Shown here: one piece after another, positions 2,814-64,000 of the stretch
Numbering within the stretch: the stretch's first letter is position 1
Layout: each line of letters begins with the position of its first letter
Assembly: GCA_028622995.1 (NCBI GenBank)
Contig: JAJQJQ010000043.1
Location: 1,860,001 to 1,924,000 of the forward strand
Source: Panagrolaimus kolymaensis
Lineage: Eukaryota; Nematoda; Chromadorea; Rhabditida; Panagrolaimidae
Direction of reading: 5' to 3'
DNA length: 64,000 nucleotides
Made by a program: the position numbers and the translations under genes
The notes under the pieces: generated by a model
What the model saw: the letters and a program-made list of their open reading frames with translations, nothing else
Told to the model about the DNA's origin: nothing
The model's database searches: none

Positions 2814-4853
2814 CAAACATGGATTGGTTGAGAAAACATAAAAAATATAAAAAATCAAAGTTAAACAAATGTATGTATGTACAGTAAAAAAAAACATCAC
2901 GGATAAAAGAAGCTAACGAGCGAGTTTCTTCTTTAGCGTAAAAAAATGAAATCAAAAAGCCACGAATAAAAAAAAAATATGGAAATCACAAAAAAAATTC
3001 ATCACGAATAAAAGAAAAGCAAAAAGAAAATGAAAAGCATCAACAACAAAGGCGCATTGCTTCGATGACGATGAAATTTGTGAATGAAAATGTGAAAAAC
3101 ACAAAAAATGCGAAAGTAAAGAATTTAAAAAAAAGGTAGGTTTCAAAGAGATAATGGAAAAAAGTATGGTAATTTTTTTTTTCGTAGCAAAAGTAACTAA
3201 CTTTTTTAATGTGAAAAAAAAACTGACTTTTTTTGGTTATCAAAGAAAATGGTTTTTTGTTGAATAAATATTTTTTACATCAATTTTTGGAATGAATAAA
3301 AAATTGTTTTGATAATCATTTACATATATAAAAAAGGCATTATTTTTTTAGACAGCACTCATCATCGAGTAAATAAATAATTTCTGTATTTTTAAAAAAA
3401 AACTGTGGCCTTCTTTTGTTTTTTGAAGAGCAAAGTTTTGTTAAAACTTTTGATACTTTTTGATTCTCCATTTTTTTAAACATCTTTAAAGTTTTCAAAT
3501 GATTATTTTATTACTTTTCTTTTTTTTCGGATGAAAACAATGATATTCAAGAAAATTTATTTATTTATGTATTTATGTATGAACACTTCAGCAGAACTAT
3601 TTACTATGAAAAAATAAAGTTTGTCCGCCAAAAATTTTGAGAATTAACTGATTCCAAAGAAGATATTGCATTCATTGTTCCCGTAATAACAAAAATGGCC
3701 GAAGTCAAGGGCCACAAATGAAAAGACACAAAATTCTCAAAATTAAAACTGTCAATATGTTTATTCGTTTTTTTATAAAATTTTTTTCCTTTATTTTTAA
3801 ACTGCAGGAAAAAGTATTTGTTTGACTCTTTTATTAAAGTTTCACCAAAAAAAATTTTTTCTTCCTTATTTAAGCCTAAAGCATTCTTTAATTTTTTTAA
3901 TAGATAAAACTGCCATATTGTGTGTAATGAGGAAACTATGAAATTCACTAACTTATTTATTTATTAATTTACTAATTTATTACTAACACCTGCGTTTATC
4001 CGTGAAAGGGTCGATCTTGAGCTTCTCAAACTTAAAAATTCTCTGAACATGATGGACGAATAAAATTCTAAAAACTCAAAGGCAAAAAAATAGAGCAGAA
4101 GAATCAGAAAAGCAGTTTCCAGATGTCAAGCCGAAGAAAAAAAAATAGACATAAACTGTTTGATGAGTTGAAATTTTGTATATTAAAATTTCCATAAACT
4201 GGTTGGATATGATTAAATTCGATAAATTCAACCATTAGCTTGACAGCTCTTCCATAAACTGAGTAATTAATTAAATTTTATTTTTTAATCATTATTGTTG
4301 TTAGAAAAAACTGTACTTGCATGTAACTCCGAGAGAATGAATTATTTTTTAATAACTGAATTGAAAAATATCGACGCTTTTTATTTATAACGTATTTTAA
4401 TAAACTGTAGACAACTTTTGCGGGACGATAATGAATGTTGTTGAAGCGGCATTATTTTTAAACAGAATTTCACTGTCTGAATTGGTTTTTTATTATTTTA
4501 AATTTTTAAGGAATTTTTTAAACTGAGTATTTGGTAAGTACCATTTTACTTCACCAACAATTAACAAAAAATAAAAAGCAATGTCATAAAACTGAGTAAC
4601 AAAAATTTAATATTTATCATTAAAAAACTGTTCAACGAATGTCGGTAATTACAAAAAAAATGTATATTGAAAATGCAGTGCTAAAAAACTGCAATTGGGA
4701 TTTCATCAATAATAATTTTGTAATTTTTAAACTGTTTTATATTTTATATCTTTATTTAACTGACAAATTGCTAACAAAGACAAACAATAATTAATATATG
4801 TAAATTAAACCTAACATAAAAAATATTTAAATATAATCTTTTTTATTTTTGTT
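2814..4853. other. Intergenic region between the mitoguardin 5' end and the rol-3 3' end
   Basis: Very A/T-rich with no supported gene. A minus-strand open frame at 3604-3948 has biased composition and no recognisable domain. The AAACTG array begins near 3.4 kb and runs into rol-3. A block at about 4551-4660 closely matches 28036-28145 in the same orientation. Confidence 0.5.
4551..4660 (+). repeat. Direct repeat, copy 1 (partner 28036-28145)
   Basis: About 110 bases downstream of the rol-3 stop share a clear mosaic of identical runs with 28036-28145, including AATGTCATAAAACTGAG and AAAAAACTGTTCAAC, separated by diverged stretches. A related inverted segment lies around 31,690-31,755. The pair brackets the rol-3 transcription unit. 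Alignment was by eye. Confidence 0.65.
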
Positions 4854-5413
4854 TTATACCCGACTAACTTTAGCTGCGTTGCGTTTGGAATTTTTTGGAC
4901 TTTCGTCATTATAAATATTTTGTAAATTATTTCCTGAATTTGAATTCACAGAAATTATGGATGAAAGATTGTTGGTTGATGATTGAGTATTTCGAGGGAT
5001 TTCATAATCATCTCCTCCACCTTCAAGATCTTCGCCACAAATCGTTGTGGTCTCTGTCTGGGCCGAAATGGAACTTTCGGGTCGATCAAATGAAAACATC
5101 GAAGTTGATGGAGCTCGTTGACGAAGATGGGAAGGCAAACCAGTTGAATGGTTTTTAACATTATCTAAAATTTAAATAAACTGTGAAGTATTTAATGGTT
5201 GAAAATTTGTGGGATACCTGATTTATCAAATCTTCCAGAATTATTATTTCCAATTAATTCCGAACTTTGATGCCTTCGATCTTGATGGTGACTATTTTGT
5301 TGTTGACGGGGATAATGTTGTTGATTATGTGGATTGCTAATATTTGAATCTTGTGAAGCATCAAATCCATTATTTATATATCCACTTTGAATTGAAGGAA
5401 ATGGGGAATTGCT
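4854..5413 (-). CDS. rol-3: rol-3 C-terminal tail exons
   Basis: Exons 5218-5413 and 4854-5164 encode a Gln/Asn/Ser-rich tail ending at a TAA at 4854-4856. It contains YEIPRN, a possible phosphotyrosine docking motif, plus SIQSGY and SFDRPES. The exons join in frame: SDNVKNHSTG crosses the junction. No domain is recognised. Being C-terminal to the kinase, the tail probably recruits adaptors. That role is inferred. Confidence 0.8.
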
Positions 5414-8400
5414 CTGAAATTTTTTTTATCGACTTTAAAACTGGAAAGAAAGGAAATAGAAGTGTTTAGACTTTTGAATCTTCTCTTTTTTGTGTAAATA
5501 TACGGGTCTAATTTTAGAGGTTTATTAATTTTAAAAAACTATATGTTTTTAAAACAGAATTTTATCTTTTATAATAGTTATTTTCATTAAACTGTTAATT
5601 TCTAGTCCATCAAATTACTGAAAATCTGTAAACTGTAGCAATAAGTGTCTTTTGATCGCCGTCAATTAACACAAAAATTGTTACCAAACATCAAAAGTTC
5701 AAAAAATTTTTTAAAGGAAAATAACTGTCCAATAAAAAGATAAATTTGGCATATTTTCAAAAGCATTTTAATATAAAAAATACGATTAATTAAAAACTGT
5801 ATACAGCTTATTCATTAGTTTAATTTTTAAATATTTATTTTATTAAGGAATCTCTCTATCGCTTCGTAAAACTGAATTTCATTTTGGTAAGATTTAGAAA
5901 ATTATGATAATTTAAAAACTGTATTACTTACTCTCATATCTGGATGATTGTGTAATCCTTCAACCAATCCTAAAAGTTCGGCAAACGATGGACGATTTTG
6001 GGGGTTTTCTTCCCAACAACTTGAAACTATTTCAAATCTAAAAAATAAAAAAACTGTCAACCTCAAACATAGGGTTTGAAATAAATCTTACAATTCATCG
6101 GGGCAATCAATAGGTTTTTCAAGCCTTTTTCCAGATCGTAAACATGGCAAAACTTCGCTATTTAATTTATCTTTGTATGGTGTTTCGCCCAATGTTAAAG
6201 TTTCCCAACATAAAATTCCATAAGCCCAAACATCACTAAAATTATTTATTTAATATTAAAACTGCAACGGGAACTTTAAAAGCTGGAATATGTTGAAAAA
6301 GCTCACGATTTATTAGTAAATATTCCATCCAACGCCGACTCGACAGCCAACCATCGAAGAGGTAAAAAATCTTCTCCTTTAACTCGATAATATTCATTTA
6401 TATACATTTGTCGAGCTAAACCAAAATCAGCTATTTTTGTAACTCTCATTGATGAACCTCGAGAAGTTATGAGGCAATTTCGAGCAGCTGAAGAAAAAAA
6501 AAACTGTTGAATTGCATGAGAGTTGTTTTAATTATTTTGTAAACTGTATCTTTTTTATATTTTATTAATAAAACTGATATGATTGGAATTAGGGTTGGAT
6601 AATTAGCACGCTAATTATGCCTTTGCTAATTATAAACTGCCAACCCTAATTGGAATTCGAATTTAATTTTAGTATTTTTAATTAAATTGCAAATTTCGGA
6701 AAGTATGTTTTTTAATATCCGAAAAAACTACAATCAGCTATTTCAAGAAAAATAAAACTGATAACAACAAAAAATTTCTTTAACAAAACTGGAACAATAT
6801 TTACATTTAGGTTTATCAAAAATGGATCGAAAAGTTTTTGTATAAAAATTTCATCGAAATTGCAAATTAAAAAAACTGGTGTTACTTCCGAAAATAAGAA
6901 AAAAGGAGGCATTTTTACTAAAAAAAATAAAAAATGATCTGATAATAAATTAAATATAATTAAAAGTGAAAATTCTAATCTATGAGATGAAACTGATTTG
7001 GAAAATAATTTTTTCTTTTGTTCTTCTAAACTGTTTAAAAAGTAAACCACTTTGCTTATTTTTATAAAACTGGTTTCTTCGAATTCAAATTCGCTCCATA
7101 AAATTAAAAACTGTGCGATAAAAAAACAAAAAAAGCTTACCCAAATCTCGATGAACATGTTTATTCATTTCTAAATAAGCGCATCCTCGACCAACATCAA
7201 TAATAATAGAAAATATTTCATTCAGCGATAATTGGGATGGAGCAGGACCGGAAGGTCGACAAGCTCGAAGAAAAGTAAGCAAATCTCCGCCTTCCATTAA
7301 TTCCATTAATAAACATTGGGGTTCTGAATCGAAACAAACTCCAAGCAATTTTACTATGTTTGGATGATCAAAATTACTGCAAAAAAATATAAAATTATGT
7401 TTTTTAACTGTCGCTTTCAAAATAAGTGTTTACTTCATTAAAATAGCTTCTTTAACAAATTTAATTCGATCCTCCGCGGAATGACCAATTTTCAAGGTTT
7501 TTATTGCGACTGGCACTCTCTTGGTTCCAACGGTAGGTAAATTCCATGCATTTCCTCGATGGACGTCCCCGAAAGAACCTTGCCCAATTTTTTCCATTGA
7601 AGTTATATTATCTCCAGAAACTTCGGGAAGGTCTGAAAAAAATCTTATAAAAACTGAATTACCTTGAAACAAGTGTGAAAATTTTATTCTTTGATAATAA
7701 ACTGAATTTTTAAAATAACAAATTGGAAGTTTATAAAAATTAGAATTTTCCTTTGCGAATATAAAACTGTTATTTAATGACTAAGTTTTTTAAAATAAAT
7801 AATATAAACTGAGACTGCGATATTAACATTCTTAAAGGAACATAGCTATTTGATGCCTTTTTCAAAATTTCGTTTTACGGGAGCTGAATTCATACTTCGC
7901 CAACCGGCAATTTGAAGCTACGTGCAACTACAGTAAATGACACGTTAAATTCAAACACGCGCTTGGCATTCGCAAAGTTCAGCTCCCGTAAACGAAATTT
8001 CAAAAAGGCTGCAAATAGCTATGGCCCTTTAAATCTTTATTTATTTAAAATTCGAAATTTATTATGGAAAATACTGGTGTATGAAAAATTTTGTTTATTT
8101 ATCTCTATGATAATTTTTTCAAAGATATTTTAAAACTGGCATTCCGTTTTACTTCAATATAGATTAGCAAAAAACCTATAAAAAACTGCATAAAAATATA
8201 TGTTAAAACATAATTAAAACTGAAGGCCGGTAAATTACAATAATGTAAACTTGGAAAAATTAAAAATGAAGTTTTGTTAAATTTTTAATCTCTACCATTT
8301 TTTTTTTAAAAATGTGTGAATTTAGCAAAAAACGGTACAATTATATTTTTGTTTTTTAAAATACTCTCATTTTTATTAAACTGGGAGCTTCTTCATTATT

Positions 8401-11400
8401 AGCTTTTGCCGCCTAAATTCAGCGTTAAAAAATTATTTTTTTTAAATAAAACTGAAAATGTAAATATGGGAGGAATATTAATGTTAAGAAAAATAACTGC
8501 AATTTTGATTTCTCTTGCAAAAATATACCAAGAATTTTTTGAAATATATTTTTTCGTTCTTATTTTTAAACTGCGTTGGTTTTTATTGATATTTTTAAAA
8601 AATAACTTACTTCGAAGTTCATTTTGGAAAGGTTTAGTTAATTCAGAGAAATTACCGCTATTTTCAAAATTTAAATCCTCCAATCGAATTTCTTTAGTCA
8701 TTTTATAATTTCTCTTTTTTTCTTTATTCTTATTTTTTCGAACTAAAATTTATATTATTATTTTTTAAACTGTGTTCGAGATCAAACGAAGGCTCACTCA
8801 AAAATAACCCAGCGATGCATAAAGTTAAAAGGGTTAAAACAAAAATGATTGAAATCCATAAAATAAAATAATACGCAGTGGAAGAAGTTTCTTTTTCGAT
8901 TTCAATTTCTTGGGTTAATCCATATGGACCAAAACCCTCTGAATTTGCTGCTCTCACACGGAATTGGGATTGAGGAGAATACGCGGAAGGTTTATCTATT
9001 CTCCACCAAAGTCGATCGGAAGATAATCCTCGTTCAGCTATTTCCCATTCCGCTGTTTTATTTGGTCTAAAACTGATTTGTAAATTTTGGTGTTACAACG
9101 AAAAGTATTTACCGATATTCAACGGCATAAGAAACAATTGGAGCTCCTCCATCATTTTCTGGCTCTTGCCATTTTAAAATCCAAAATGCTCTTTCTTTTG
9201 TTATTTCAACTGAAATTGGTGAGGATGGAGTTCCAGCTAAAAAAATATTTATAATTTTTACTTTAAAATGAGAATTAATAAAATTGCAGGTACCTTTGGT
9301 TCGACCTTGTTGAATGGGTTGAAAAAATTGTTCGGTGAAACTTTTCTCACTATCATTGTAAGAATATTTGCCCGAATATGTGGCAACAAATCGATAATCA
9401 TAAGCTGTGGAAGAACGAAGGGATGGAATGGTTATATTTAGGGATGACTCTATTTTAGGGTCAAAAGTGACATTGGGTGAACTCGTCCAGGTTGCATCTG
9501 TTCCACTCTAAAAAAATTTTATAATTAAGATATTTTAAAACTGTGAGGATTTCCTTGATGGTGTTTAAAAAAATAATAAACCAAAAAAAATTATGAATTA
9601 TATTAAATAAATTTTTGGGAACTTTATAAATAAATATAAAACTGTAATTAGAACCATCTTTTTTTGTATTTTATGTAAAATGGATTTAACTCAAAATTTT
9701 TAAAATTAAACTGCATTTTACATTAAACGATGAAGTTTAAAAACTGGAATTTTGGGAAATTTTATGGTTAAAAATTCTTAATAAACTGAATGCTTTTTTG
9801 ACAGACCTTGATATTTAACTGAACAAGGAGATATTTTTTCGATATTTAAACTAAATTTAAAATGCTCGTGAAACAAGCTAATAACACTATTTTTATATAA
9901 ATTTTACGAAAAAAATAACTGTGAACTACTGAGCTTAGTCATGACAAATAGTGAATTTTTTTTCTTATAAACTGTATTAAATCTCCAAATAACGGATTTA
10001 AAATATCACAAAAATTATATTTTAATATTTTTTCAATAACCAAAAAAATAGTGAAGGTTTTTTCCGGCGCGGTCCTTAATGCTTTTATATTATAATTAAT
10101 TGCTTTCTTTATAGAAAAAACTGTACATGGGAATTTTATTTGGTTTTATTAAATTTTTTATTAAAGTATTGCAGTAACGCATTTTCATAATTTTCTAAAG
10201 TAAAAACTGATGAGGGTTCATAATTTAGAAAAATTCAAAGCGTTTTATACTTTGTTATTGATTTTTATAATTTTATAAACTGTTGTACTAAATACGCAAA
10301 TATGTTTTATATAGTCATAAAAATTTTAAATATGACTTTTTTATTATTTCATAAAATATGTGACGATGTCATTCGTTTTAAACTTTATATAATCAAACTG
10401 AGCACTCCGCAATTAAAGATAAAACTTCGAATAATTAAAATATCTTTAACTTATTAATTTTTAATAAACTGTGTTCATATTTTTTTAGCTATAAAAGAAA
10501 CACAAACTTTTTTAACCTTGTCAAATGAATTTAAAGAAATTAAAAAAAACCCAATTTCTTTTTAACAAATCATTTTTTAAATTTTAGAAAAAACTGCAAC
10601 ATCATATGTCTGACGGCAAAAAAAATTAGCTTTGCTTAAATTTTTTTATCTTTATAAACTGTATTTAGGCGAAAATGGATCCTTGAAATAAGCTTTGATT
10701 TAAAACCAAAAAGCAAAAAACTGTGTTCAAAATTAGGTTCTTTTGAAATAAATTAAGTTAAACTGAAAAGTCCGTAGTTTCAGCGGCTTATTAAATTTAA
10801 TGACTCATTTTTCATTTATTTAAATTTATGATTTGTAAAACTGCAATAAATATCTCAAAGGTGTAAAAAATATTTTTTGGTAAATTTTCTAAAAGCCTTT
10901 TTTGTTGAATATTTTAGCTTTTTTATATATATAAAACTGGTCGTCAGTGTGTCCTTTTTTTGTTATTCAAGCTTTTTTTTTTAAGTTTTTAAACTCACCA
11001 ATCGATATTGAACATCCACGGTTTGAGGCAATATTTGTGGCTCCAATGAATTCCATCGAAGCAAAAGCGAATCACTCGTAAAATTATCCAATCTCAAAGT
11101 GCCTGGAATATCCATGGTTCGAGTTACAGCTTCCGCGGAAATTGCATCTTGATCTTCCGAAAAAGTTGCTTGCAACCGAGTAACATGAATGGCGGAAACC
11201 CAAAATTTATAATCCGCTGAAGGACGGAGATTTGCTATTTTCGCTTGGCATGGGTCTTCGATGCATGAAACTATATCGGAAAGGGCAGTGGAAAAGGTTC
11301 CATTTTCAAATTGTTTAGCTCCAATTGAAACCGGAGAAGCTAAGGATGAACTTTGTTGAGTGATTCGATATTTTATTTCATTTCTTGGTGCATTAAGTGA

Positions 11401-14400
11401 TTGAGGCAATTTCCAATAAAGTAAAACTGTGTCTGGGGAAAGAGCAAAGGCAGCTGGATCTCGAGGCGATGTTGGATATCCATAACCTGTTTTAAGGGTT
11501 TTTATTTCAGAGATTTGATCCTTGTATGTGTAATATCGATTGAACCATGAAATATAAACATCGTAACTGAAAATCAATTTTTTTAATTGCATTTTTATTA
11601 AACTGGGTTAATAAAACAGCTACGGATTTTTTAAACTTTTTAAAAGTTGTAATGGTGAGATTGTTGTCGGAAGTCAAAAACGTTTTATTGATAAAAATAT
11701 TTAAAAATGTCATAAAACTTTATTTATTTAAAAATATATTTAATGTATTTTAACTGTCTGGACCCTTACAAACAGAATTACCAAGAAATTTGCTATAAAA
11801 AATCAAAGAAAAGATATATAAAAACTGTCAAAGCACAAGGTTTGATAAAAAGCTTTTAAGAGTTCTCAAAAAAAACTATCTTTAATAAAATTATGATAAA
11901 TTAATTTTAAAACTGAAGAGCTAAAATTCTAAAGGATTGAATAAAATTTTATTTTATTTTTGTTAAACTGTTCATGATGTTTTCTATTTGTTTCATATAA
12001 ACTAATTATGCTAAAAATATTATTAATTTAAAACGAAACTTATGCAAAAATAAATGTGTTGAACACAATATACATTAAATAATTATTTAAAGAGTGTTTT
12101 TAAACTGGTGAGAATGATCATAGCATTTATTTAAAAAACTGGACAAACACCAAAAAAGAGGCGAAAAAATTTAAGAAAAATTAACCGTTTTAAGCCGCCT
12201 TGCGATTGACAAAATTTAATAGAAAACAGTGTTATCAGAAAGTTAAGTTTTTGTGTGTTTCAATCGAAAGGTAAAAAAAATTGATGGGAAAGAAGACACC
12301 TTTAATAAAACTGTTTCCATTTTGTAAGTTTGGTTAAAAAATTTTTTACCAAATAATTAAACTGTTTTGAAGTTTTGGATCATTTTTTTAAACTGTAAAC
12401 CATCAATATAAGGGAAAACTTACTCAGTTTCTTTATCCAATATTCCATTTTCAATGTGAATATTATTTGAAATACTTCGAAAATGTTTAACTTTATCCGT
12501 TTTAGTTCTACGAAAATGAACATCGTATTGAGTTGGTGGAAACGAAATATTTGCGCATGAATTTGAAGTTGGAATGGGTTCTTTTACAATAATAAAAGCT
12601 CCACTTCGGCCTTCGTTGCTTACATTAAATGAAATGGATTCAGGCGGGGGTAATTGAAAGCACGTTCGTTCTGGGTATGGCTCCGATGATTGACTCACAG
12701 CTAAAATGGATTTCAATGGAGTATTTTGAATGGGTAAAATCGATGGAGTTTCCGTGGTTCGATCATAAATAATTAAATTTGTGGCTGTTCCAAAAACAAA
12801 TAATTTATCTGCGATTGAAATAGTTAAAATTGATTTAAGTCCCGTGGTTTCTTCAAATTTATTCCATTGAATTTCAATATCGGAACATTTAAAATTATTT
12901 AAATTAGAAGAATCTATCGCAATTATTCCATTCCATGTGAGCGCATAAATTATGGGTGAAGCCGCTCGATTCCATTTAAAATCAGTCATAATCGAAGTAA
13001 TTGTTTGAGATTTCAAACAATCAAGTGAAAGGGCGAGATTCTGTTCGGTTCCATGAGTTAAATCCAAACGAAATAATGAGCCATTGGTGGTAAGTAAATA
13101 TGCGGAACTAAAAAAAGAATAAGTTGGAAAAAAACTGTCGTTCAAAAGTCTTTTCTAAAAATATGGGAGCTTTAAAGAATACAAAAAACCAAATAATTTG
13201 TCAAAAATAAATTAAAAATTAATTATGTTTTTAATTAACTGGGTAGAATCTTTGATGGTGCTTTATAAAACTGCACACAAGGTATTTTACAGGAAAACTA
13301 CTTTAAGTTGAAAAATAAATGGAAATTAAAAAAAACTGAGCCTCCAATAAATACTTTTTTTTATCAAAAAAAGAAAAAGGTAAAAATATATTTTTATTAA
13401 CTGATAACTATTTCACTAGATGGTTTAAAAAACTGACGAGTGTTTCATTTAGTACACTAAAAAAAACTGCAGAATTCGTCATCGGAGGAAAACAATTATA
13501 TGTATTTTAAATTTAAAAACAAAAAATTATATTTAATTAAAAAAACGAGACTAAATATTCGCAAGGAAATTTTTTTATTAATCGGAAAAAGATTTTTAAT
13601 TTACTGTAAAGTTTTGCTTAAAGGGACATAGCTATTTCATGCCTTTTTTGAAATTTCGTTTGCGGGCACTGCAAGTTACACTTGGTAAGGCGCGTGTTTG
13701 AATTACCGTGTAAGACAGAAGTGACACGGTAATTCAAACACGCGCCGCCCCAACTGTTCCTATCAGCCCCAGTATCGAAATTTTTGAAAAGGCATGAAAT
13801 AGCTATGTCCCTTTAAATGGGCTTTAAAAACTGTATAAAATAATGTCTAAAGGAAAGGATTTCAAATTTATGAACAAAAATAATTTTTTTTGAGGAAATA
13901 TAATACAATGAAATATCAGGGATGAAAATTAAATATTTTATTAATTGAATATAATTTCAGCTCTTTAAAAAGAAATTGTGATTTCTTTTGGTGAAAATTT
14001 TTTTTATTTTAAAATCAATAAATGAAAATATAAAAAAAATTAAAAACTGCTTTTTATTGTTCATCATCGCCTTAAATATATCAAGGTACCATAAAATTGT
14101 TTTAAATTCCAATGAATTAAATAAAAATTAAATTTAAAAAAATCAAAACTGTCGCATAAAATTTCTAATTTTATAAAAACTGCGGAGCCAGAGATTGTGG
14201 CTTTGAATTTGATCTATCAGTAATAATTGTTTAATATTGGAAAACGAAACTAAACTCGCACACGGAATAACTGGAAAGATTGTTTGGAGGTTTTTTAAAT
14301 TTTGGATCGAAAAATAGTTTTTTAAATATAAATATTCCGATAAAATATGAGCAAAGAAAAAATTATATTTTTTTAACTGAATAAGGTTGAAGGCGCTTTC

Positions 14401-29650: not shown

Positions 29651-29925
29651 ACAAACTCGTAATTTTTGTTTCAGTTTTTTTAAACTTGAATAAAAATAAT
29701 ATATAAATATTAAGGAAACCGCTACAGTTTATTTTTCTTTCTTGATTTTATGAAAAATCATAGGCAATTGCAGTTTTACTTTTAGTTTTTTCTAATTTTC
29801 GGTTGCTTTCGTCATCTACAACTTCTTCCAGTTTAACTATTTATTTTTAAAAAAAATTATATTTAGTTGTTCTACAGTTTAAACAATATTTTTTTCCATA
29901 ATATTTCTCATTTTAATTTTTTTAG

Positions 29926-30159
29926 TTCCATTAATTCCATCAACATCCCCGCCAATGGATGTAATAACATTTGATAATGCAACGAAAGCATTTTATTTTG
30001 CGGATGCCTCTGATATTTCTGTATTTCGTTCCATGTCACCCAAAACCATTCGATATCGATTCCTTGATTTTCTTACCATTACTCATTTATCGATTATTCC
30101 AAATAAAGCTGTAATTATTTTTGCTTCCGCGTATCAAATAGTTCAATATCGTCTTACTG
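29926..30159 (+). pseudogene. Inverted copy of a rol-3 propeller exon (of 19223-19472)
   Basis: Nearly the whole exon is present, with a TTTTTTAG acceptor. The protein differs from the 19223-19472 exon at one residue over about 70 (Ser to Asn in IIPNKAV), while several codons differ silently. A GTAAAA follows directly after CTTACTG, cutting the last five codons. The flanking introns are not similar to those at 19.2 kb. It precedes, on the + strand, copies of more upstream parts of the gene, so order is scrambled. Confidence 0.85.
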
Positions 30160-36280: not shown

Positions 36281-36289
36281 TTTTTTTAG

Positions 36290-39645: not shown

Positions 39646-39831
39646 CCGAATTGGAATTATTTCAGCAATTTTGCATAATATTAAAAAACTGTGTAAATAT
39701 AATTTAAGAATAAAAAATTTATTAACAAACAATGAAAAATTACAAATTATTTATTTCCTGAGATCAAATACCCATTTAAAAAAAAGCAAAAAACAAAAAA
39801 CTGAATAAATTTAATAAAAATTAATTATTAT

Positions 39832-53400: not shown

Positions 53401-56400
53401 TAAAACCTATGTTCGCTATTTTTAAAACAAATTTGGAAATTTAACTGTACACAAATAAAAAAAAGGCGACGAAAAAATTATAAAATATCGCTAATAAATT
53501 GATATTATTAAAAAATAAACATTTTTTGGAGAGAAAAAAAAAACAGCATATTATTTTATATATTTTTAAAGTAAAAAACTGTATCATATGGAGTTCGAAA
53601 AAAAAATTTTGCCATAAATTTAAATTTAATCTTTTTTTTTAATAAATTTTTTTTTAAAGATTCTCACTTAAATTTTAATATTAAGCAGAAACTATCAAGA
53701 ATTTGTAAGTAAAATTGCGTTAAACTGGAGAAAAAAAAAAGACGGGATTGTGAGCTTTCGTAATGGGGATTAAAAAACTGTCTTGACAACTTATAATTGG
53801 CTATCATCAAATAAGTAAAAAAAAGGAATGTCATTTATTGCCAGGGATTTAAAAAAATTAAAATTAAAAACTGGCATCTGATTGGATATCATTCAACATC
53901 ATTAACTTAAAAATTAAGCTAATAACTAATTAAGTATGGAAAATTAAAACAGTTTTTGATGACGCTTCTATTCGAATATGATCATAGAAAAAAAGAGAAG
54001 AATTATAAATAAAAAATAAAAATGTCGCCATTTATCTTTAAAGATAAAATTAAATTTTACTTTTTTAAATATTTAAAAAACTGTTTATATTTGTAATTAT
54101 TTTCTTACAATTTATAAAGAAAAATAAATATAAAAAACTGAGTGGTGGTTATATTATCTTAGAGAAAAATTTATAAAAGTTAAAAACTGTCATCCTTGTC
54201 GATTTTTAATTAAAAAAAATATTTTCCAACAATTTTATAAATTTCAAAACTGTATTGAAAATAAAATACCTGTAAGGCGGGTGAAAAGGTGCTGGTCCTG
54301 AAATCATATAATCCAGCTTTTTCAATCAACCAATTATGCATGGTTGTTTGCCCGGTAACCATGGGAGGATTGGCTAATAGGGAATATCGAACTCCAGCCC
54401 AATATGGTTTAGCACATCTCAATCCCACTACTTCTGTATCTCTGCAACCTGCTCCTACATTATGAAATAAACCATCATGTCGACACATGGTTATATCGAA
54501 TTCATTTTCTTCACATCTTATATTATCCATAATCATTGGAAGTTCACCTTTGTCAACAAAAATCCTCCAATTTTCAAAATATTGTGGATCCATAGTTAAA
54601 CCCAATTGATTGCATGCAAGATGAGCGAGTTCAGCGGTCCATGATCGATTACAAATGGTTCCCCAATTTCCTTCCACTAAAACTTCCAATCGACCTTCAG
54701 TGATTTCTTCATTTCCATCTTCGTCCACTAAACGAATATTTTCGAGGCTTGGAAGTTTGGAAGTTGTGGAAGTAAATACAACGGGAAGTTCAGATTCTTG
54801 AAAATCTGTTCGTAGTAATTCGCCTTGAACAAGCATTCCAATTCCATCCATAAATTCCAATCTAGCTCCAGGGGCAATGGTTAATTTAGCTCCTGGAGCC
54901 ACGTGTAAATCATCCACAACAGTATATCTTCCAGGTGTGAGGTCCTGATTTTCAAAAATAGTTCCTCCAATTTCAAATGGCTTTGATTCACTTTGGAATT
55001 TTCGATATGATTGAAGGGTCAAAGCCATTTTTGGAGTTCGTTGATTGCAAATTGCTGCATATGGATTTATATTTATCGAAGCAAGGGAATATCGATTAAA
55101 CTGAAATAAGAAATTAAAATTTAGAAAAATAAATAAAACTGAGCATTTTTTTGCTTTTTTTTGATTATAATTAATTTTAACTTTTAAAAAATTTAATAAA
55201 TAGTTTAAAAACTGGTGGCTTTCATTAATTAAAAAACTTTAATTCGAACCAAATTTTTTTTAAATGAAAACTGAAAATTTTTAGACATGACAGAATTATT
55301 TTATACGGTTTTTCCAAATTTTAAATAAATGAAACGGAACGTCTTTTTTTGGTAAATAAAAATTTGAAAATAAACCGTCTTTATTTTTTTATAAAATCCA
55401 TCTATTTGGAATTAATATTCTCGAATAATTACTATTTTATTTGAAAAAAATACTAAACAAAATTCAATTTAAAAAAAACTGTGTATCCATCCACCCACCT
55501 ATTAAATTTCCAATAAATTCAGAAGAATCTTCAATGAAATTCTACATAAATTAAAAATTTAAACTGCGACTGCGTTCGCTTTTGAAACAAAAAAACATGG
55601 AGAAAATTTTCTTAAATCTCATTAATTCAAAAAGCATTTAAAGCTTATTTTTTTTAATTCTAAAACTGAACCATTTAAGCGAATTAGAAAAACTTCTTCC
55701 TTTAGTATAATAAAAAGAAAATAACTGTCAATTAGTAAATAAAAGTGATCAAGATTCAAATTTTTTTAAACTGTTTTGCAATTTATTTCATGATTTAAAG
55801 AATAAACTGCTTTTTAGGAAAAGTAATTTGGAAAAATATAGAGACGATTTTTTAAACTGCAGAACTTTTTGAATGAAGGAATTTTAAAATTATTATCAAA
55901 CTGTGTCCGGGTTTTTTTCCAGGATTAACTGTTATTTGATTCTGCATAATATTTTGTGATTTTAGCAATATTTTTTCTTTGATATCAAAAAAAAATAAAC
56001 TATCAAAGATTAAAGAAAATGACAATCGCTCAAGTTATTTATACAGACAAAAATAGTTATAATATTTTTAAACTGAATATGTTTTTTGGGGGTTACGAAT
56101 AATAATAATTTTTATTAAAAAATTTAACTGTCAGAATCAAATAAAAAGAATTAAAAGTGACATTTTTTTAACCGAAAAACTGTTTTTTTTTTAAAGAAGA
56201 AGAAAAAACTGATTTGAGAAGTATACAGGAATGCAAAAAAATTAGAAAATTATTACTATTTTTTAGATCGTAAACTGACGTTGTTTTTATTTTTTTAGAG
56301 TTGGAGGAAAAACTGTTTTTTATCAAACAAAAAACCGAAGAAAAAAAAATAGAGGAAACTTTAACTGTTATGTTTTTTTAAATAATAAAAAAAGAGATTT

Positions 56401-59400
56401 AAAACTAAACCATCCTGTGGATAAGGAAATTTATTTAGATTTATAACTGAACAGGAAAATAAAATATGAATGTCATTAAAGTCTTTTTTAATAAAAACTG
56501 AAACTTTATCTATTCTAGAATTAAAGAATTTGTTGATTCTAAATTCCTTTAAAGTATAAAAACAAAAAAAACTGTAATCGTCAATATTTTTAGGTTCTTA
56601 TGCGAAAGGTTAATAGCCTTTGCTTTTTATTAAAGTATAATATTATTTTTTTAAAACTGTATCTGTTTTATACAACGGAAAAACTATTATTTGAAATTTA
56701 ACTGTCATCATTTAAAAAGAAAGGCTTACCTGATCAAAAATGCGATCTTTAAAATTATCATAATGTTCATGACCCCAATTATTTTCTCTTGCATCAATAA
56801 TTTTAGCATGTTCCATTAATTCGGTGGCTATTTCATAATCCGCGTGAGGATTATTGAAACAATTTCTTCGAATCACCACATTGCTGCTTGAAACCACCAT
56901 CGCCGCATATGGAGTACTTCGAGGTTTTAAAAATGGAAAAGGATTAAACACTTTATTTCCGCGTAATTCATTTTGTTGATTAAAAACCATTTTTTGATTT
57001 GGTGCATCTTCGTTTAATCCAATATTCACAATCCATGGACCAGAATTAAATTTAAAAATATTTTTAGCGATTGTTATATCAGATTTTAAATTCCTGAGAT
57101 GAGGTTGATTGGAATTTTTAATTAACAAGCAAGAATAATTATTATTTAGGAATTGATTACTATTTATTACACCAATAACATTGACCGCGGGTTGCATGCG
57201 AATTGTGACTTCTGAATTCGATTCAAATACATTTCCAGTTATATCCAAAGTTAATGGAGCAGGTTGGGGATCTCGACACGAAAATACATCAATTGCAGGG
57301 TGGTTATGATTTTGAATAAATTGCACCCAATTTATAAGGACTTTAGGTTCATAAAAATGCAATTGTTGATGATCATAAATTTCGGGAATACAATAATTTC
57401 CAATAACTAATCCGCCCCAAATATTTCCTTTAAAAATTGTTGGAGGATAAAAAATATTATTCACTGGTCTTCCCTTGATTATAATTTCTTGCCTCAATGG
57501 AAGGAAAGGAATGGACATATTTTGATGGAATGCAAAACCCCGCCATCGATTTTCAATAAATTTAGTTCCATTTATATTTATCGAACCTCCAGCATATGAA
57601 ACATTCATGCCATCAACCCAATTATAACTCAACGAAGTATCATTAACCCAAATATCCGCGGCTCCATCTTTCACATAAAATCCGATTCCTTCATTGGATT
57701 CCACTGTGACATTCCAAAGTGCTGTTCGATCTCGAATCATTTGAGCTTCGATTCCATTTCCAGTATTATTAATTACCACGGAATGAGTAACATTTAAACC
57801 ATAAAAAGCTTGATGAGTTGCGGATGCATGAATTTTAAAATCCAATTCTATATCACCCAAAACTCTCCCCGTGGAATATGGACCAAGTTCATGATCGAGG
57901 GCAATGTAAATTGGATTTCCTGAAGATCTCAATGAAACCGATTGAGGAAATTTTCCATCATATATTGGAATTTTATATCGACGATCCACGCAATCATTCA
58001 CGTTTGTAATATTTCCATCACAAATAAGTAAATGTGTTTTGGAACCCAATCTTGGAGGATTGTGATTCGTGACAGTGAGAAATTGAAGCGTATAATCATA
58101 TGGTAATCGACGGGGCAGGCTTACTATCTGAAAAAATTATGTAAATTCTATTTAATTGATTATTTTAAAAAACTGGATCATAGCGTGTTGGTTTTTAATA
58201 AAAATTAATATTAAGAAAACTGGGTCGCTTTCTGCCTCATCAAAAACAAAAAAAAAGTTTGTACACATTTATAACTGAAATAATTTTTTTTAGTATTGGC
58301 TGGTGAAAGTTTTATAAAAGATTGCCAAAATTTAAACTGTACAATTCGAATTAAATACGTAATTTAACCTTCAAGCCAAAAATTTATTTAATTTAATTTT
58401 GGATCATATTAATTTCGAAAAAAAACGAACTACCATTTTTAGATAGTGTTTAATTATAAAAAAAACTGTGTTCTGGCAATTTAAGATCGTATTAATCAAA
58501 AGAAAAATTTAATTTTAATTCTTTGGTCGAAAATTATTTTTAGATTTTAAACTGTGAGTGTACCCTCCTTGTTTCTTTTTTGATTTTTTGTATAAAGTTA
58601 AAACTGTCTGGATGCACACTTTCTTGCTTTATATTTCTTATTATTCAAAATTGTTGCCTTTCTAAGCGAGAGCATAAATTTTTTTTTATTTTTAACTGCA
58701 TACGAAGTTTATTGAATGTGAACGAATTTAAATAAAACTTAGAGAGCTTTGTTCAGCTTTATAATTTGAGAAATTAATTAAAAAATCTGCCATTTGGGTG
58801 GCGCGGTTAAAAAAAGTTTTCTTATCTCTTTTTTTATTTTTTTATAAATAACTGGATAAAAAGTTTATAACTTATTTTAGCATTTTTCATATTTAAAAAT
58901 TCTTAATACAGTTAAAGAAAAGCTTTTTTTTGGAATAATTTTAACTGTGACTTCTGTCATTTGCAGGCTGATAAATGTTTAAAGCCAACAAAAAAATATA
59001 TTTGATAATAAAATCTTTAATTTAATAAGTAAAAACTGTTCATAGTGCTTTTAGATTGGAAATTTTATTTACAAAAAATAAATTTCCGTGTCAGTTAACA
59101 CAAAAGAAAAATCTTTTTAAACTGTAAATCAGTTTCTTTTATTTTTGGTAGTATTTATAAAACTGGATGAGCAGCTACCATTCTGAATTAAAAACAAACA
59201 TTAATTTAACTTTTTTTTAAATCAAAACTGTCATCCTGTGTGTTTGGTGGAGTTTGTTGATTTTATTTTTTTTTAATTAAAAAAATTAAAACTGCCGCGA
59301 GCTAATATTTAACGCTATGGAGCGCTATATATATTTTTTATAATAAGAAACAAAAAAAACTGTCACAATTAATATGAGCAAGGTTTTTTTTTAAATATTT

Positions 59401-62400
59401 GATTAAAACTGAGGTAAACAAGGAAAAATTTAAATCAAAGAAAAATATAGTTTTTTGTTTCTTATTTTAATTTTCACTTTAATTTAATGGAAAAATTAGA
59501 ATTAAAACTGTGTTTACGTGTTACAATGTCAAGCATTAAAACAAAAATTTTTTGATTTTAACTGTTGTTGATAATTAACAGGTTCTTTGGAAAAAAACTG
59601 TATTTTAATAAAATATTTGTCTAAATTTAGTAAATAAAAACTGTGTCCGTTTGAATTTTGTAAAAACTTAAATACTCATTTTTTATTTTAAACGATCAAA
59701 TTTTTTTTAAACTGGGAAAAGTATTCTCATTGGATTTTAAAAAATCTTATAATAAGCAACTTACCATCCAACAAATGGGAGGCATGAGGGAATCTATCAC
59801 GGTGCCACTTTTTAAAACCAATTTAATTAAATGTGGAAAAAATAAATTTCTTGGAAGTTCATGATCGTGGCACATATCTATTCGAGGCTTCTCTTCTTCA
59901 TAATAACTACTTTGCCTTTTATTTCTCAAATTTCCAAGGGATTTAACTAAATTTATTCCAGCTTGGCGTTGTTTATACCAAATTCCATCCCCATAATTTC
60001 CTTGAATTACAGTCATATTAATAAATACTCGGCCATCGGTGGTATTATCCACAGCAATTCCATGTCCACGATTGAATGAAACAGTGGAATTTGCAATTAA
60101 TATAGGACCGTCGGGTTGATAAAAATATATTCCATCTCGAGCACTTCGATGTATTTTTAATCCATTCATTATTGGTGGCACCCCTTCCACATATAAAGCA
60201 GGGGTAACATTTCGAGTTTGACTAAAAAATAAATAATAATATAAAAATAAGTAAACTGAGTAAGGATTTGATTAGAAAACAGCGATAAATTTAAGAGGAA
60301 ATTAAAATTTAAAAAACTGTACAGAATTCGAATTTTGTAATCTTAAAAATTCTAATGGAAAAATGGAAAATTAACTGAGTCGTAGAAGTCTTCTTTTTTT
60401 TTGTTGCCAAATGACTTGATTAAACAATATTAAAAAGAAAGATTTAAACTGTGTAAGTTTTTTCTTAGTATAATGCCAATGAATAACAAAAGTGTAAAAA
60501 ACTGAAGACCACGCTCATCTAGATTTTTTAAAAGATTATTTTACTTCAATGTTTAAATATAACTGTTCAACTGGATGTAAAAGGGAGAGAATTTCTTTTT
60601 AAGTAAAAATAAATAAATATTGTTATTATAAAAAACTGCAAATTGAGATAAGCGTCTTCTAATTATACGTTATGTTTTCTTTAACTGAAATCTTCTATTG
60701 AATGCATTTTTTTAGCAAATAAAAAATTGCCAAGGACAATGTTTATGAGATAATTTATTTCTAGGTGTTTAATCAAAAAATATCAATCAACAGAAAAAAA
60801 TTGCTTCAAATTTGAGGCAAAAAAATAAAAAATATTAATTTAATAAAACTGTTTCTTTGAAAAATTTCGGGGATATTTAACTGCGTTTATTTTAAACTTG
60901 ACTTTAGAGTTTACTATTTTGATAAGAAAAAAACTAAACTGCAAAAAAATTTGACATTTTTCTGATGTTGAATTTCACAACGAAATAAAAAAGCTTTTTA
61001 AATAAAAGAAAATTTTTTAAAACTGAGTGGATTTCAGTTAATTTAGAAACATTTTGGTCTATTTAAAAAATAAAACTGCGGTTGATTTTTCAATGGTTTA
61101 TAAAAATAAAATTTAATTTAATTTTAATTTTACTTTTATACTTACCCATCATAACCAGCAAACATAATATCAATAAATTCAAGCCTGCTACTACTTTCCC
61201 TCATCACTGACACTCCGTCAGGATCTTGATAAACAAAATGATAAGGGGAATTATAAATTTGGAGGCCTTTCCAATGTTTCGCCCATCCTTGGAAAGTTGG
61301 TTGACCCCAGCAATATAACCCAAGATCATCTTCGCCTTGGCAGAGATTTTCACTCAATGGAATATTTTCGGGTTTTGCAAAACCTTTACATTCCCATAAA
61401 TTTTTTGCTGATGGAATGCAACCTGGAATAGGCATAACAAAAGGATAGGTGTCATTATTTCGACGGAACCAAGTATAAAATGCTCCATCGTTGTAACCCA
61501 TGGATTTGCAAGCCGTCGAAGTATCTACAGCTGTCCAACTAAATTTTTTTTAATTTATTTTAATAATTTGCATAAAACTGAAATGTAAGATGGGCATTGG
61601 CATACTTGGTTAATGCAGAGCAAACCCCTCTCCAACGATCTCGGAATCGGACTTGTAATCTTCCTTGTCGAACAGTTGGCCCATCAATAAGTTTAAAATC
61701 TGGGAAAGATTCATCGTAATTTGTTTGCTGTTGAAAAGGCAACATTTGAATATGGGCAAATTCATTTCCCTATAAAAATAAAAATGGAAAATAATTAAAA
61801 ATTAAAAACTGGGGCCGGTGGAATATTTTTGGAGAGTTGAAAAAGAAGTTATAAAAAAACTGTGATTTTGTGTTTCATTTTTTTTAATATACCTTCGATG
61901 AGGAAAATTCGAAATGAGAAAATATATTTTTAATATTATTTTATAAAAAACTGCAGTTCTCTTTATTTTGCTTTAAAAAACTGGCAATTCATATTTTATT
62001 GCTTTGTTTAAATTTAAATTACTTTTTTCATGATCATAAGAAAATTTTCAAAAAATAATGTAAAAACTGAAGAACATAACGTGCATTTTATCTTTTAAAG
62101 AAAAGAGATATTCTTGAGAAGCATAAAATGATAAAAAAAAAATTAAAAACTGCCTTCTTTGCTTCTTCCAAAGGAAAGATTTAATTGAAAACGTCAAAAA
62201 TAATTTTAAAAGGTGAAACACTTGATTTAAAACTGTTTGAAAACGGCAAAGTAAAAAAATCATTACACTAGTTAAAGAAAAAACACAAGAAATAATATTA
62301 TGAGAAAAAAATTTTAAAGGCTCTTATTCCTTTTAAAATTAAAACTGCATTTAAATGATTTCTTGAAGAAAGCAAGCAGATCACGTACATTTCAAAACTT

Positions 62401-63554
62401 AGAAATTTATTCTTTAAGTTTAGTTTTTTAAATTTACAATAATTAAAAAAAAAAGATTTTAAAAAATTTTAAAAAACTGAGGACCATCCGCTATGAATAT
62501 ATTTTAAATCAAAGAAACTAACAGCATTTTCAAGAAATAAATGGGGAGAAAAAAACTGATAGGAGAAGTTTTTTATGAGGATTTTTAATTAAAGGAAAAA
62601 CTGTTTTTTAAATTAAGTATGGAAGAAAAAATGAAATGTAGGTTTAAAGGGACATAGCTATTTCATGCCTTTTCAAAAATTTCGATACTGGGGCTGATAG
62701 GAACAGTTGGGGCGGCGCGTGTTTGAATTACCGTGTCACTTCTGTCTTACACGGTAATTCAAACACGCGCCTTACCAAGTGTAACTTGCAGTGCCCGCAA
62801 ACGAAATTTCAAAAAAGGCATGAAATAGCTATGTCCCTTTAATATTAAAAAAAAGTGGAAAAAAATTCGATGGTTCATAAATTTTCACGAAAATAAACTG
62901 TTTGCAATTTCCATGTTGGATGACATAAGAAAAAAAGAAGAGTTAATTACAAAAAAGCAAATGGAAAAAAACTGGAGATGATTGCAAAAATAAGTAAATG
63001 TATTTCTTTTTCCTATAGGGTATTCTTTGAATTAAAATAAACTGTTAAAACAATGAGAATTATGGTTTTTATTTCTAAGATGCAAAATGTTTTTTTATTT
63101 TATTTTATAAGTAAATTTTAACTGGATTTACACTCGCATTTTTTGATATCAATTTTGAAGTGTAAATAAATAAATAAATTTTAAAACTTACAATAGCTCG
63201 AATAGTTCCCCAAACTTTGAGTCCAACACCAGTATCAAAATAAAGTTGAACGCCGGTTTCGATGGTTAAAGTGGCGCCAGCTTCCACAATCAAATCCGAA
63301 ACCACTCGATAAGGACTGTTTCGAAAAAATAGAGTTACATTCTCTGAATATACTCCACCCAAACTGCTTTTAATTCGTTGATGAGGAATTTCCAGCCCTG
63401 GAGGAAGAGGCATTTGCCCTGGATTTCTTACGGGAACCATGGGTTCCACCATTTGTGAAAAGCATGGTCGATAAAAAGCCAAAGCTAAAAAGCTAATTTC
63501 CACTGAAACTATCAACCAAAAACGCAAATTTGTAATAAATATCGAATGCTGCAT
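39832..63554 (-). CDS. bark: Bark beetle/Anakonda-type giant transmembrane protein, about 20 exons
   Basis: The Drosophila relative organises tricellular septate junctions. Approximate exons 5'->3' (high to low): 63192-63554, 61608-61769, 61147-61538, 59763-60222, 56730-58127, 54270-55100, 52484-52882, 51446-51719, 51162-51397, 49625-50254, 48837-49020, 48362-48785, 46358-46864, 44650-45521, 44300-44464, 42436-43342, 41513-41645, 40917-41449, 40375-40758, 39832-40324. The product is about 3,200 residues, close to fly Bark. Order: signal peptide, beta-helix start, three SRCR domains spread among parallel beta-helix segments and CUB-like pieces, a C-type lectin domain, one membrane helix, and a Ser/Thr/Pro-rich tail ending at TAA 39832-39834. 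No internal stop was noticed in the exons read. Symbol follows the fly gene. Confidence 0.88.
41513..43342 (-). CDS. bark: bark exons: beta-helix end and C-type lectin domain
   Basis: Exon 42436-43342 ends a beta-helix (NMFCLNYALYFDTILIQSMS), has a dibasic site (FVRQKRQVLNQ) and the beta-helix hallmark ASHNYWGYPGTHGVAAG. It then starts a C-type lectin fold with GDCAAGWFQAG, SCFLFIGAAMTYENAVNFCE and a truncated-looking loop. Exon 41513-41645 completes it with CGSMSSRSSSIRQQNCNNLL and PFVCEK, supplying the conserved Cys. The 1-kb intron between is motif-filled. Confidence 0.83.
44300..45521 (-). CDS. bark: bark beta-helix/CUB-like exons
   Basis: 44650-45521 holds beta-helix rungs (ALQIIRRNPILENVNITNSS, MHGLQIISPRDSIIIT), a CUB-like insert (VDCVKVFTTKTSKNLSFRFL, then LSVYSDSS) and further rungs with RGALHYRNAGEMGPNVIIEQ. 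44300-44464 continues (NSLTHNRGGLLVTAESSSA). Alternating Asn and small hydrophobic residues are typical of parallel beta-helices. Confidence 0.8.
46358..46864 (-). CDS. bark: bark third SRCR domain exon
   Basis: SRCR pattern: GFLQFYNATTGEVVPSCD, then FTRRNAQVICRELGL, a Cys at CVGTETRLDKC and C-terminal FNYVHCGSNSS. It ends WGGIAFGHSSLEVQEGNTEG, the stretch that leads back into the beta-helix in this family. Confidence 0.82.
46870..48355. other. Large bark intron (about 1.5 kb)
   Basis: Filled with AAACTG motifs at usual spacing. No exon or element recognised. Confidence 0.6.
48362..52882 (-). CDS. bark: bark central beta-helix exons (six)
   Basis: 52484-52882 (FTNITVRNNYYDGIDIIYND, ENVLIENNLNAGVRFNP), 51446-51719 (CUB-like: CTYTLDIFAVGHEYGLSAKL), 51162-51397 (HVYESVIRHNQYGVSAVHY), 49625-50254 (IDNCSIHDNHGPIIDTHRDL, NSGVYVHLPDSYNIATKKQH), 48837-49020 (MNITHNWWGGNSEGMIPQRI), and 48362-48785 (YRITRDLTIMPGATLYIDKN, the start of a new beta-helix). 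48362-48785 also has TRYKRSILKRLRHR and ends IRKKRR, which are basic, protease-like sites. Confidence 0.82.
50398..50735. mobile_element. GC-rich hAT-like non-autonomous element with 8-base target duplication
   Basis: The element proper is 50406-50726. Its ends are inverted: CAGTGATGTTCC on the left and GGAACAACACTG on the right. The host octamer TTTGGTAG occurs immediately outside both ends (50398-50405, 50727-50734). CAGTG termini and an 8-base duplication are hAT hallmarks. The interior is dense in CGGGCG/CCCGCC repeats, in sharp contrast with its surroundings, and has no credible protein. One AAACTG-like site (TTTTTAACTGAAAA) lies inside. It is in a bark intron. Confidence 0.85.
54270..55100 (-). 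CDS. bark: bark second SRCR domain exon
   Basis: Starts with SLASININPYAAICNQRTPK, then a beta-helix entry (YTVVDDLHVAPGAKLTIAPG, ARLEFMDGIGMLVQGEL). A textbook SRCR follows: GRLEVLVEGNWGTICNRSW, HLACNQLGL, DNIRCEENEFDITMCRHDG and GCRDTEVVGLRC. It ends with AKPYWAGVRYSLLANPPM, re-entering the helix. Confidence 0.87.
55101..56729. other. Large bark intron (about 1.6 kb)
   Basis: AAACTG array throughout; no exon or mobile element recognised. Confidence 0.6.
56730..60222 (-). CDS. bark: bark N-terminal beta-helix exons
   Basis: 59763-60222 has VEGVPPIMNGLKIHRSARDG, NSTVSFNRGHGIAVDNTTDG and a dibasic NLRNKRQSSYY. 56730-58127 (1.4 kb) has a CUB-like start (YDYTLQFLTVTNHNPPRLGS) and many rungs (VVINNTGNGIEAQMIRDRTA, WVDGMNVSYAGGSININGTK, VFESNSEVTIRMQPAVNVIG). 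It ends DARENNWGHEHYDNFKDRIF, the NNWG type of helix end. Many NxS/T sequons. Confidence 0.85.
61147..61769 (-). CDS. bark: bark first SRCR domain (two exons)
   Basis: 61608-61769: DGPTVRQGRLQVRFRDRWRG and VCSALT. 61147-61538: WTAVDTSTACKSMGYNDGAF, IPGCIPSAKNLWECKGF and EDDLGLYCWGQPTFQGWAKH. The GRLQVR...W.GVC, AC..MGY and C-terminal LYC pattern is SRCR. The junction is in phase (ALTNWTAVD) using a GTATGC donor. Confidence 0.82.
61770..63191. other. First bark intron
   Basis: About 1.4 kb with AAACTG motifs and the TTAA MITE copy C (62644-62842). No other feature recognised. Confidence 0.6.
62644..62842 (-). mobile_element. TTAA-flanked 199-base MITE, copy C
   Basis: Same length as copy B and, by eye, its exact reverse complement, including the central ACGGTAATTCAAACACGCGCC arm. 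TTAA at 62644-62647 and 62839-62842. It lies in a bark intron 49 kb from copy B. Confidence 0.9.
63192..63554 (-). CDS. bark: bark first coding exon: signal peptide
   Basis: ATG at 63554; the hydrophobic signal (FWLIVSVEISFLALAFY) is followed by a Pro/Met-rich linker and LGGVYSENVTLFFRNSPYRV. Then comes VEAGATLTIETGVQLYFDTG, the first beta-helix rung typical of Bark. Donor GTAAGT at 63186-63191. Confidence 0.85.
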
Positions 63555-64000
63555 TATTATTGTTTAAATAAATAAATAAATAAATATTGAAAATAAAATA
63601 AATTAATGTTTAGTGGCGCGCAGCAAAATCATTTGAAATATTCTGAAAAACTGGAAATGAAAAAGTTGATGATTTTTTATGCGCCAATAAATCCACGATA
63701 ATATTAGAAATAAAAAATATTGCAAAAATCGTAGAAATGTTTCATTTTAAAACTGTAGCAAAATAATTAAGATAAGATAAAGATAAATAATAAACTGAAG
63801 AGAATAAACTTTTGCAGATGATAATTTCTTTCATGCAAAAAAAGGAACTGGTAAGGATATGAATAAATTCTAAAAGACAAACATAAACTCAATAATAATA
63901 ATTTTACAAAACTTAATAATAATTATAATTAAGGAAAAAACTGTATTATCACTTTTTGATTTGTGTAAATATAAAATAAATTAAATTTAATTAAAAGAAA
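63555..64000. other. bark 5' flank
   Basis: A/T-rich with AAATAAATAAATA just before the ATG and several AAACTG motifs in the same polarity as in the gene. Promoter or 5' untranslated intron is possible; no specific element identified. Confidence 0.4.

Follow-up and report, generated by a model that had tools for sequence, protein, structure and literature searches.

The 64,000 nucleotides analysed here (the window) come from the nematode Panagrolaimus kolymaensis (GenBank assembly GCA_028622995.1, contig JAJQJQ010000043.1, positions 1,860,001 to 1,924,000) and hold a rol-3-like gene, an SRCR/right-handed beta-helix gene, an inverted partial copy of the former and a mitoguardin exon (Table 1). 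The original prediction for this DNA was that AAACTG, written CAGTTT where it lies on the - strand, forms dense, strand-polarised cassettes in the introns and flanks of the two large genes. We find that it does, and that the phenomenon exceeds the claim: the window holds 327 copies of AAACTG on the + strand and 91 on the other, and 200 dinucleotide-preserving shuffles, the control that the prediction had itself named, gave far lower counts of 29.4 +/- 5.2 (maximum 41) and 19.3 +/- 4.7 (maximum 39), respectively. The sites fall into three long single-strand runs, within which a total of 11 sites lie on the opposite strand.

Table 1. Genes, single-strand runs and example units in the window (ORF, open reading frame; C3, C18 and C81, contigs carrying homoeologous copies)
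Feature	Positions	Strand	Details
Mitoguardin exon	1526..2116	-	PF10265, E 2.7e-56; motif-free
Run of AAACTG units	3220..28463	+	182 vs 3 sites; non-coding DNA over and around the rol-3-like gene (- strand)
Example unit	4402..4427	+	Spacer differs at 9/20 in each of C3 and C18; right flank almost the same
rol-3-like gene, long-ORF span	8730..23705	-	Rol-3 propeller and fibronectin III matches in two ORFs
Example unit	26027..26052	+	Compared with C3, spacer differs at 11/20; right flank identical over the 24 letters shown
Example unit	26901..26926	+	Spacer differs at 11 (C3), 11 (C18) and 7 (C81) of 20; motif kept, right flank nearly so
Run of units (CAGTTT on +)	29672..39416	-	83 vs 3 sites; over a segment containing the inverted partial rol-3-like copy
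Inverted partial rol-3-like copy	31462..34851	+	Counterpart within the window at 20599-28326
Run of units	39686..63938	+	142 vs 5 sites; mainly introns of the SRCR/beta-helix gene (gene on -)
SRCR/right-handed beta-helix gene, long-ORF span	39832..63563	-	SRCR match in one ORF, sub-cutoff beta-helix match in another

Neighbouring units (TAACTG included) lie a median of 73 bp apart, close to the recurrence of 75-80 bases first proposed, and they seldom crowd one another, with 9 of 488 gaps below 30 bp and 26 of 488 at 30-35 bp. A hand count of 19:0 at 9,481-10,980 was right in its polarity and wrong in its number, exact AAACTG standing there at 17:0. Most units lie outside long ORFs. As a proxy for exons we used 25 long ORF stretches (16.3 kb), some of which extend into introns; 22 of the 327 sites on the + strand and 5 of the 91 on the - strand fall within them, and the first site of all is at 3,220, beyond the mitoguardin exon. 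This agrees with the earlier statement that exons, and the mitoguardin gene, nearly lack the motif.

The motif is exact. In a motif-oriented pool of 114.9 kb, homoeologous stretches included, the strand ratio is 825:15 for AAACTG and 157:11 for TAACTG, and because the remaining 17 single-base variants show little strand bias (x0.44 to x3.5, mostly about 1, the two highest being 14:4 and 2:0) the consensus is [A/T]AACTG. AACTG may fit the recognition core of Myb proteins; SNPC-4 carries Myb repeats. Composition and word statistics over 1,149 units, homoeologues again included, confirm the cassette architecture originally described (an A/T-rich tract, the motif, some 20 nt of higher complexity and a further A/T-rich tract). 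With positions numbered such that the final G of the motif is +5, a G+C-richer block spans +6..+26 and is followed by A-rich DNA; GG is favoured at +24/25, and AGGA at +23 was observed 32 times against 3.4 expected. Upstream, at -14..-2, A+T is 0.80-0.91 against a background of about 0.76, an AT-richness of the kind described for the 21-22U loci of Strongyloides ratti. The Ruby motif (GTTTC core) is absent from the 70 strongest position-specific words, and on the motif strand its core AAACAG shows no excess (37:84). An RNA hairpin within the block was considered and set aside, no pair of columns being prominent among 516 units (highest z 3.04 over all pairs tested), and Rfam 15 gave 0 matches at gathering score in the window. 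The pattern AAACTG-N15-A7, which places an A-run inside the block, was likewise rejected, as it is rarer genome-wide (409+418) than its reversed control (706+739).

Domains and host genes

The assembly scanned has 265.8 Mb in 807 contigs, which we label C1 to C807, and is reported as triploid at 266 Mb (PMC10374039). Three motifs at 30-60-bp steps occur 4,011 times in it, compared with 320 for the reversed pattern. Strand asymmetry, expected genome-wide by the original prediction, fails overall, with the triples balanced at 1,997 and 2,014, and holds locally: the strand changes along the C3 domain form 17 runs where 39 +/- 4.2 would be expected. A stricter cluster pattern finds 70 places against 0 in the control, all on 11 contigs that make up two homoeologous sets (C3, C18, C40, C42, C81 and C507; C5, C20, C23, C104 and C275), membership being inferred from matching sequences. 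For the bipartite pattern AAACTG-N17-AGGAA there are 597 matches, compared with 264 for its control. Among the 100 places that head the listing, C3 accounts for 80 at 6.75-10.04 Mb, close to the end of the contig; another 13 are in C1, C2 and the remainder of C3, C4 has 2, and the beginning of C5 has 5. Ten Argonaute loci outside the domains hold the motif at 5:5 in 37.8 kb. Dense arrays are thus confined to a few megabase-scale domains, present in homoeologous copies, and are absent from most of the genome; within the domains they cluster mainly in introns and intergenic DNA, as do the type I 21U loci of Caenorhabditis elegans. A rough total of about 36,000 units over all copies, meant only as a guide, follows from 873 motifs per 90 triples in the stretches fetched, which were not a random sample. 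At C3 7151654-7167095, units with identical listed letters return after about 15.1 kb, suggesting a tandem duplication of recent date.

In the window nearly all units are antisense to the overlying gene, be it the rol-3-like or the SRCR/beta-helix gene, and AAACTG is also antisense to a DM-domain exon, recognised by eye, at C3 6.79 Mb (252:3 in the surrounding 27.6 kb). The initial idea that the host gene sets the strand, drawn from these cases, was overturned by two further loci. At one (L065) all 60 of 60 sites lie on the - strand, as does an MFS transporter gene, and the motif is therefore sense (60:0); at the other (L066) 21 of 21 sites lie on the - strand, 3 of them inside the stretch covered by enoyl-CoA hydratase ORFs of the + strand, hence antisense, and 13 between these ORFs and the next recognised ORF. 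The strand of the motif is independent of gene direction. Units also survive inversion, since the segment at 29672..39416 retains 22 of 29 motifs relative to its homoeologue, with 120 of 413 spacer positions (29%) divergent. The inverted rol-3-like copy is 82-88% identical to the window's own gene; one part of it is 89.4% identical to the C3 homoeologue and 88.4% identical within the window.

Other features were noted in passing. A 200-bp element lies at 13618-13817 and, inverted and 100% identical, at 62643-62842; each copy is an imperfect palindrome (78%), a third relative (72-73% identity) lies at 7832-8032, and the element resembles a recent one of the miniature inverted-repeat transposable type. 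A GC-rich repeat stretch (GCGGGCG-type) occupies 50359-50739 of a window that is otherwise 27% G+C. In the assembly, COX1-like matches lie on C328 and C13 besides C807, perhaps as nuclear or rearranged mitochondrial copies. The COX1 of C807 shares 92% identity with a Litoditis sequence, 90% with Rhabditophanes and 89% with Bursaphelenchus.

A retained motif beside a fast-changing block

The first sign that motif and spacer evolve differently came from the rol-3-like paralogues. There 20 motifs are kept and 14 are not, the motif mismatch is 0.8%, and at kept motifs positions +6..+29 differ by 27-31%, compared with 12-16% in the upstream and 14-22% in the downstream flank. We then compared the window with three homoeologous loci, excluding alignments below 74% identity or 300 bp. 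The motif is retained in 150 of 196 cases, whereas 12 control hexamers are retained in 241 of 516 (Fisher p 4e-13). These controls remain from 13 hexamers besides AAACTG once TAACTG is set aside as a motif variant; AAACTT, AAACTA and AAACAG among them are one step from the motif, and their own retention may be lowered for that reason. The 20 nt after kept motifs, by contrast, differ at 692 of 2703 positions (25.6%), the flanks at 1979 of 13782 (14.4%), fourfold degenerate sites at 76 of 528 (14.4%) and noncoding DNA away from motifs at 2739 of 23932 (11.4%). The spacer/flank ratio is 1.78, with a site-bootstrap 95% interval of 1.53-2.09 over the 85 unique window sites from which the 150 pairs derive.

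The fast block ends on the right at about +25, and does so also in the 64 ungapped, right-anchored pairs (of 205 pairs, 64 are of equal length, 50 lack an anchor and 91 are shifted in length). On the left the block is bounded by the motif. Its excess over the left flank depends on the gapped alignments: in the ungapped pairs, which are anchored on the right side only, the left side (0.302) exceeds the block (0.259). TAACTG, as a variant of the motif, shows the same bump in divergence. Among control hexamers the outliers at +26..+29 are TTTGTC (n=8, 0.375) and GAAAAC (n=20, 0.205). A replication elsewhere in the genome drew 13 pairs from the 70 strict-cluster places, identical partners excluded, and its rates are accordingly not genome averages: in the 9 of 21 units with an equal-length right anchor the spacer differs at 27 of 180 positions and the flank at 6 of 168, and in the other 12 the raw spacer differences range from 0 to 15 of 20.

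Mismatches within spacers show no clustering (98 adjacent pairs, where permutation gives 90.9 +/- 6.0), which speaks against replacement of whole blocks, and transitions and transversions stand at 143:188 in spacers, close to the 52:87 of the flanks. Swapping of cassettes was rejected as well, because an all-against-all comparison of the 1,149 units yielded 18 non-homologous pairs with at least 16 of 20 identities and 52 at a control offset; four pairs with at least 18 identities look homologous by eye. Single bases change faster in the block, with no sign of swapped-in sequence.

Candidate guide-RNA loci and competing readings

The array is real and constrained, and is apparently undescribed in the literature searched, no account of it appearing in titles or abstract openings of open-licence full-text papers. 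We observe an exact motif that forms single-strand runs, seldom leaves gaps below 30 bp, keeps to domains in its dense arrays and is retained between homoeologues, and beside it a spacer that, pooled over units, diverges more than fourfold sites do. Three readings had been offered at the outset, and of these a small-RNA array fits best because of the fixed motif, the rarity of units less than 30 bp apart, the hypervariable 20-nt block and the megabase-scale clustering; a splicing or elongation signal is disfavoured, and a chromatin code taken alone predicts no one-sided hypervariable block of 20 nt. We therefore propose, with about even confidence, that each unit of some 30 bp is a predicted separate locus for one guide RNA of 21-22 nt, the array being akin to a 21U cluster without PIWI. 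RNA polymerase II would initiate at AAACTG in the germ line and would pause where the GC-richer block, with GG at +24/25, meets the A/T-rich tract, as has been reported for the piRNA precursors of C. elegans and Pristionchus. The product would start at the T of AAACTG, which would supply a fixed 5' U, and would be carried by a non-PIWI Argonaute. Guides of the S. ratti kind are predicted because UG+N20 gives 22 nt, the end of which coincides with the end of hypervariability, and because S. ratti has such clusters. Piwi-domain exons match at 143 places, a count inflated by homoeologous copies and split exons, and the Argonaute set looks large; 3 of 10 Argonaute exons fetched from these matches were compared with solved structures, and all three are closer to AGO than to PIWI.

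Fast spacer evolution could come from diversifying selection on guides or from mutation tied to a short transcription bubble. We favour a mutational share, since individual selection on thousands of units would ask a great deal, the more so in a probably asexual triploid. Taken further, this would make the array a self-diversifying library in a nematode without PIWI, tens of thousands of units in which AACTG is frozen and the guide changes faster than synonymous sites because its own transcription makes the stretch mutable, so that fresh guides against genome parasites would keep arising in the absence of sex as well; we consider this stronger proposal tentative and less likely than not.

Several results weigh against guide-RNA loci read from the AAACTG strand. 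The Ruby motif sits about 40 nt upstream of the C. elegans 21U RNA, and here no promoter motif at -40 is found among the 70 strongest position-specific words, the upstream region yielding nothing but T-runs and a handful of 6-mers seen 5-9 times each. The 21U model does not account for GG at +24/25. A joined search with 24 spacers matched nothing, the window itself included, and so carries no information on targets. In a second domain the excess is smaller, at 92 of 561 positions (16.4%) in the block and 297 of 2658 (11.2%) in the flanks, and it lies mostly in +6..+15 (55 of 280, 19.6%) rather than +16..+25 (37 of 281, 13.2%). The near-flank substitution spectrum of the spacers lends no support to a special mutagenic polymerase. 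One survey reports no 5'-U-biased small RNAs outside clade V, clade IV included (PMC4323106), and for juveniles of Meloidogyne incognita the account given is of no piRNA-type small RNAs (PMC4524723). The intronic piRNAs of Pristionchus pacificus are described as widely distributed, with sense about equal to antisense (PMC6436959), unlike the domain-confined, single-strand blocks seen here. Finally, of the two strands it is CAGTTT rather than AAACTG that has the deeper trough after the block in the profile of RNA:DNA hybrid energy; by this measure the RNA could be made from the other strand.

This last possibility, in which the same units yield either N20-CAG transcripts ending in a U-tract or products of RNA-dependent RNA polymerase (RdRP), of 22G type, starting opposite the C of CAGUUU, seems to us unlikely. 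Nowhere does the energy profile dip lower than directly after CAG, a G plus 21 nt (+5 to +26) equals the length of a 22G RNA, and plant-parasitic relatives in clade IV without PIWI are reported to have many WAGO/CSR-1 Argonautes and RdRPs (PMC5934874). Against it, RNAs of 22G type are copied from transcripts, yet the units do not follow the strand of the host gene, being sense at the MFS gene and antisense at other genes, and the far end of the block offers no fixed 5' base, though a variable block length could blur one. A process at the level of DNA would need no RNA product: a protein recognising AACTG might nick or open the DNA, and a one-sided patch of about 20 nt would be resynthesised with errors. 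The short exact recognition sequence, the constant distance at which the hypervariable block ends and a pooled substitution rate above that of fourfold sites all fit; we nonetheless think it quite improbable, given that the transition:transversion ratio is near that of the flanks and the changes are unclustered, and that strand runs, domain confinement and motif retention would be left unexplained.

An array of protein-binding sites labelling a chromosome domain, with a role in, say, meiotic pairing, dosage compensation or germline chromatin, would agree with the exact motif, the scarcity of close neighbours and the confinement to domains in homoeologous copies. It predicts neither a one-sided 20 nt that evolves faster than fourfold sites nor GG at +24/25, and we judge such an array distinctly doubtful. 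That the units act within the host transcript, as an intronic signal for splicing or elongation, draws on the position of most units outside long ORFs and on the antisense orientation of nearly all units in the window. This reading is disfavoured because the strand ignores gene direction: a signal of this kind should keep a fixed strand relative to the host transcript, but the units are sense at the MFS gene and antisense at the rol-3-like and SRCR/beta-helix genes, the DM-domain exon and, for 3 units, the enoyl-CoA hydratase ORFs. Dense arrays are, moreover, missing from most of the genome. We regard it as very unlikely. Decayed copies of a mobile element or satellite, with nothing but the hexamer left in common, would explain many copies in one orientation per locus, yet non-homologous spacers show no excess similarity, little is common beyond the hexamer and a weak GG, and the motif is retained while the block changes, which makes this reading barely credible.

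How nematodes outside clade V control transposons after the loss of PIWI is an open question. If the units do make guide RNAs, clade IV would have motif-defined guide clusters of its own, here in an animal that is probably free-living and parthenogenetic. The motif would then allow related genomes to be searched from DNA alone. A fixed motif beside a 20-nt block that changes faster than fourfold sites is, moreover, a natural place to ask whether guide diversity arises by selection or by local mutation.

Comparison with known systems

The periodic An/Tn clusters of C. elegans resemble the array in their A/T tracts within introns, and differ in having a periodicity of about 10 bp and no hexamer. 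The 22G RNAs of C. elegans, made by RdRP and antisense to transcripts, are alike in that the motif, read as AAACTG, closes with a G and that +5..+26 amounts to 22 nt; we know of no DNA motif that they need, and the strand here, unlike theirs, is independent of the gene. Closer are the type I 21U loci of C. elegans. In these the Ruby motif lies upstream of the RNA, whereas here the motif abuts the variable block, but both systems consist of thousands of short units in megabase-scale clusters (two in C. elegans), mainly in introns and intergenic DNA (PMC6436959, PMC9203780), and both join a fixed motif to a free guide sequence with a high-then-low melting signature (PMC6436959). The piRNAs of clade V are described more generally as thousands of short RNA polymerase II units with pausing at the step from high to low melting temperature, and the intronic piRNA loci of Pristionchus share with our units their place in introns and have a strong low-melting tract downstream (PMC6436959).

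P. kolymaensis itself probably belongs to clade IV. PIWI is reported lost in clade IV (PMC6436959, PMC4323106), and it is within that clade that the nearest known system is found. S. ratti, which has lost PIWI, is reported to make 21-22-nt RNAs with a 5'-U monophosphate from same-strand clusters of 1 and 2.7 Mb, from loci that are AT-rich upstream and carry no known motif, with transposable elements as targets (PMC9203780). The S. ratti clusters are X-linked. There the RNAs have been sequenced and a motif is lacking, and here the motif is strict and the units are known from DNA; there 88.78% of loci overlap another, and here so few as 9 of 488 gaps fall below 30 bp. The two are alike in their guides of 21-22 nt, predicted in our case, in AT-rich DNA upstream, in megabase-scale domains, and in clusters that keep to one strand locally and use both strands overall.

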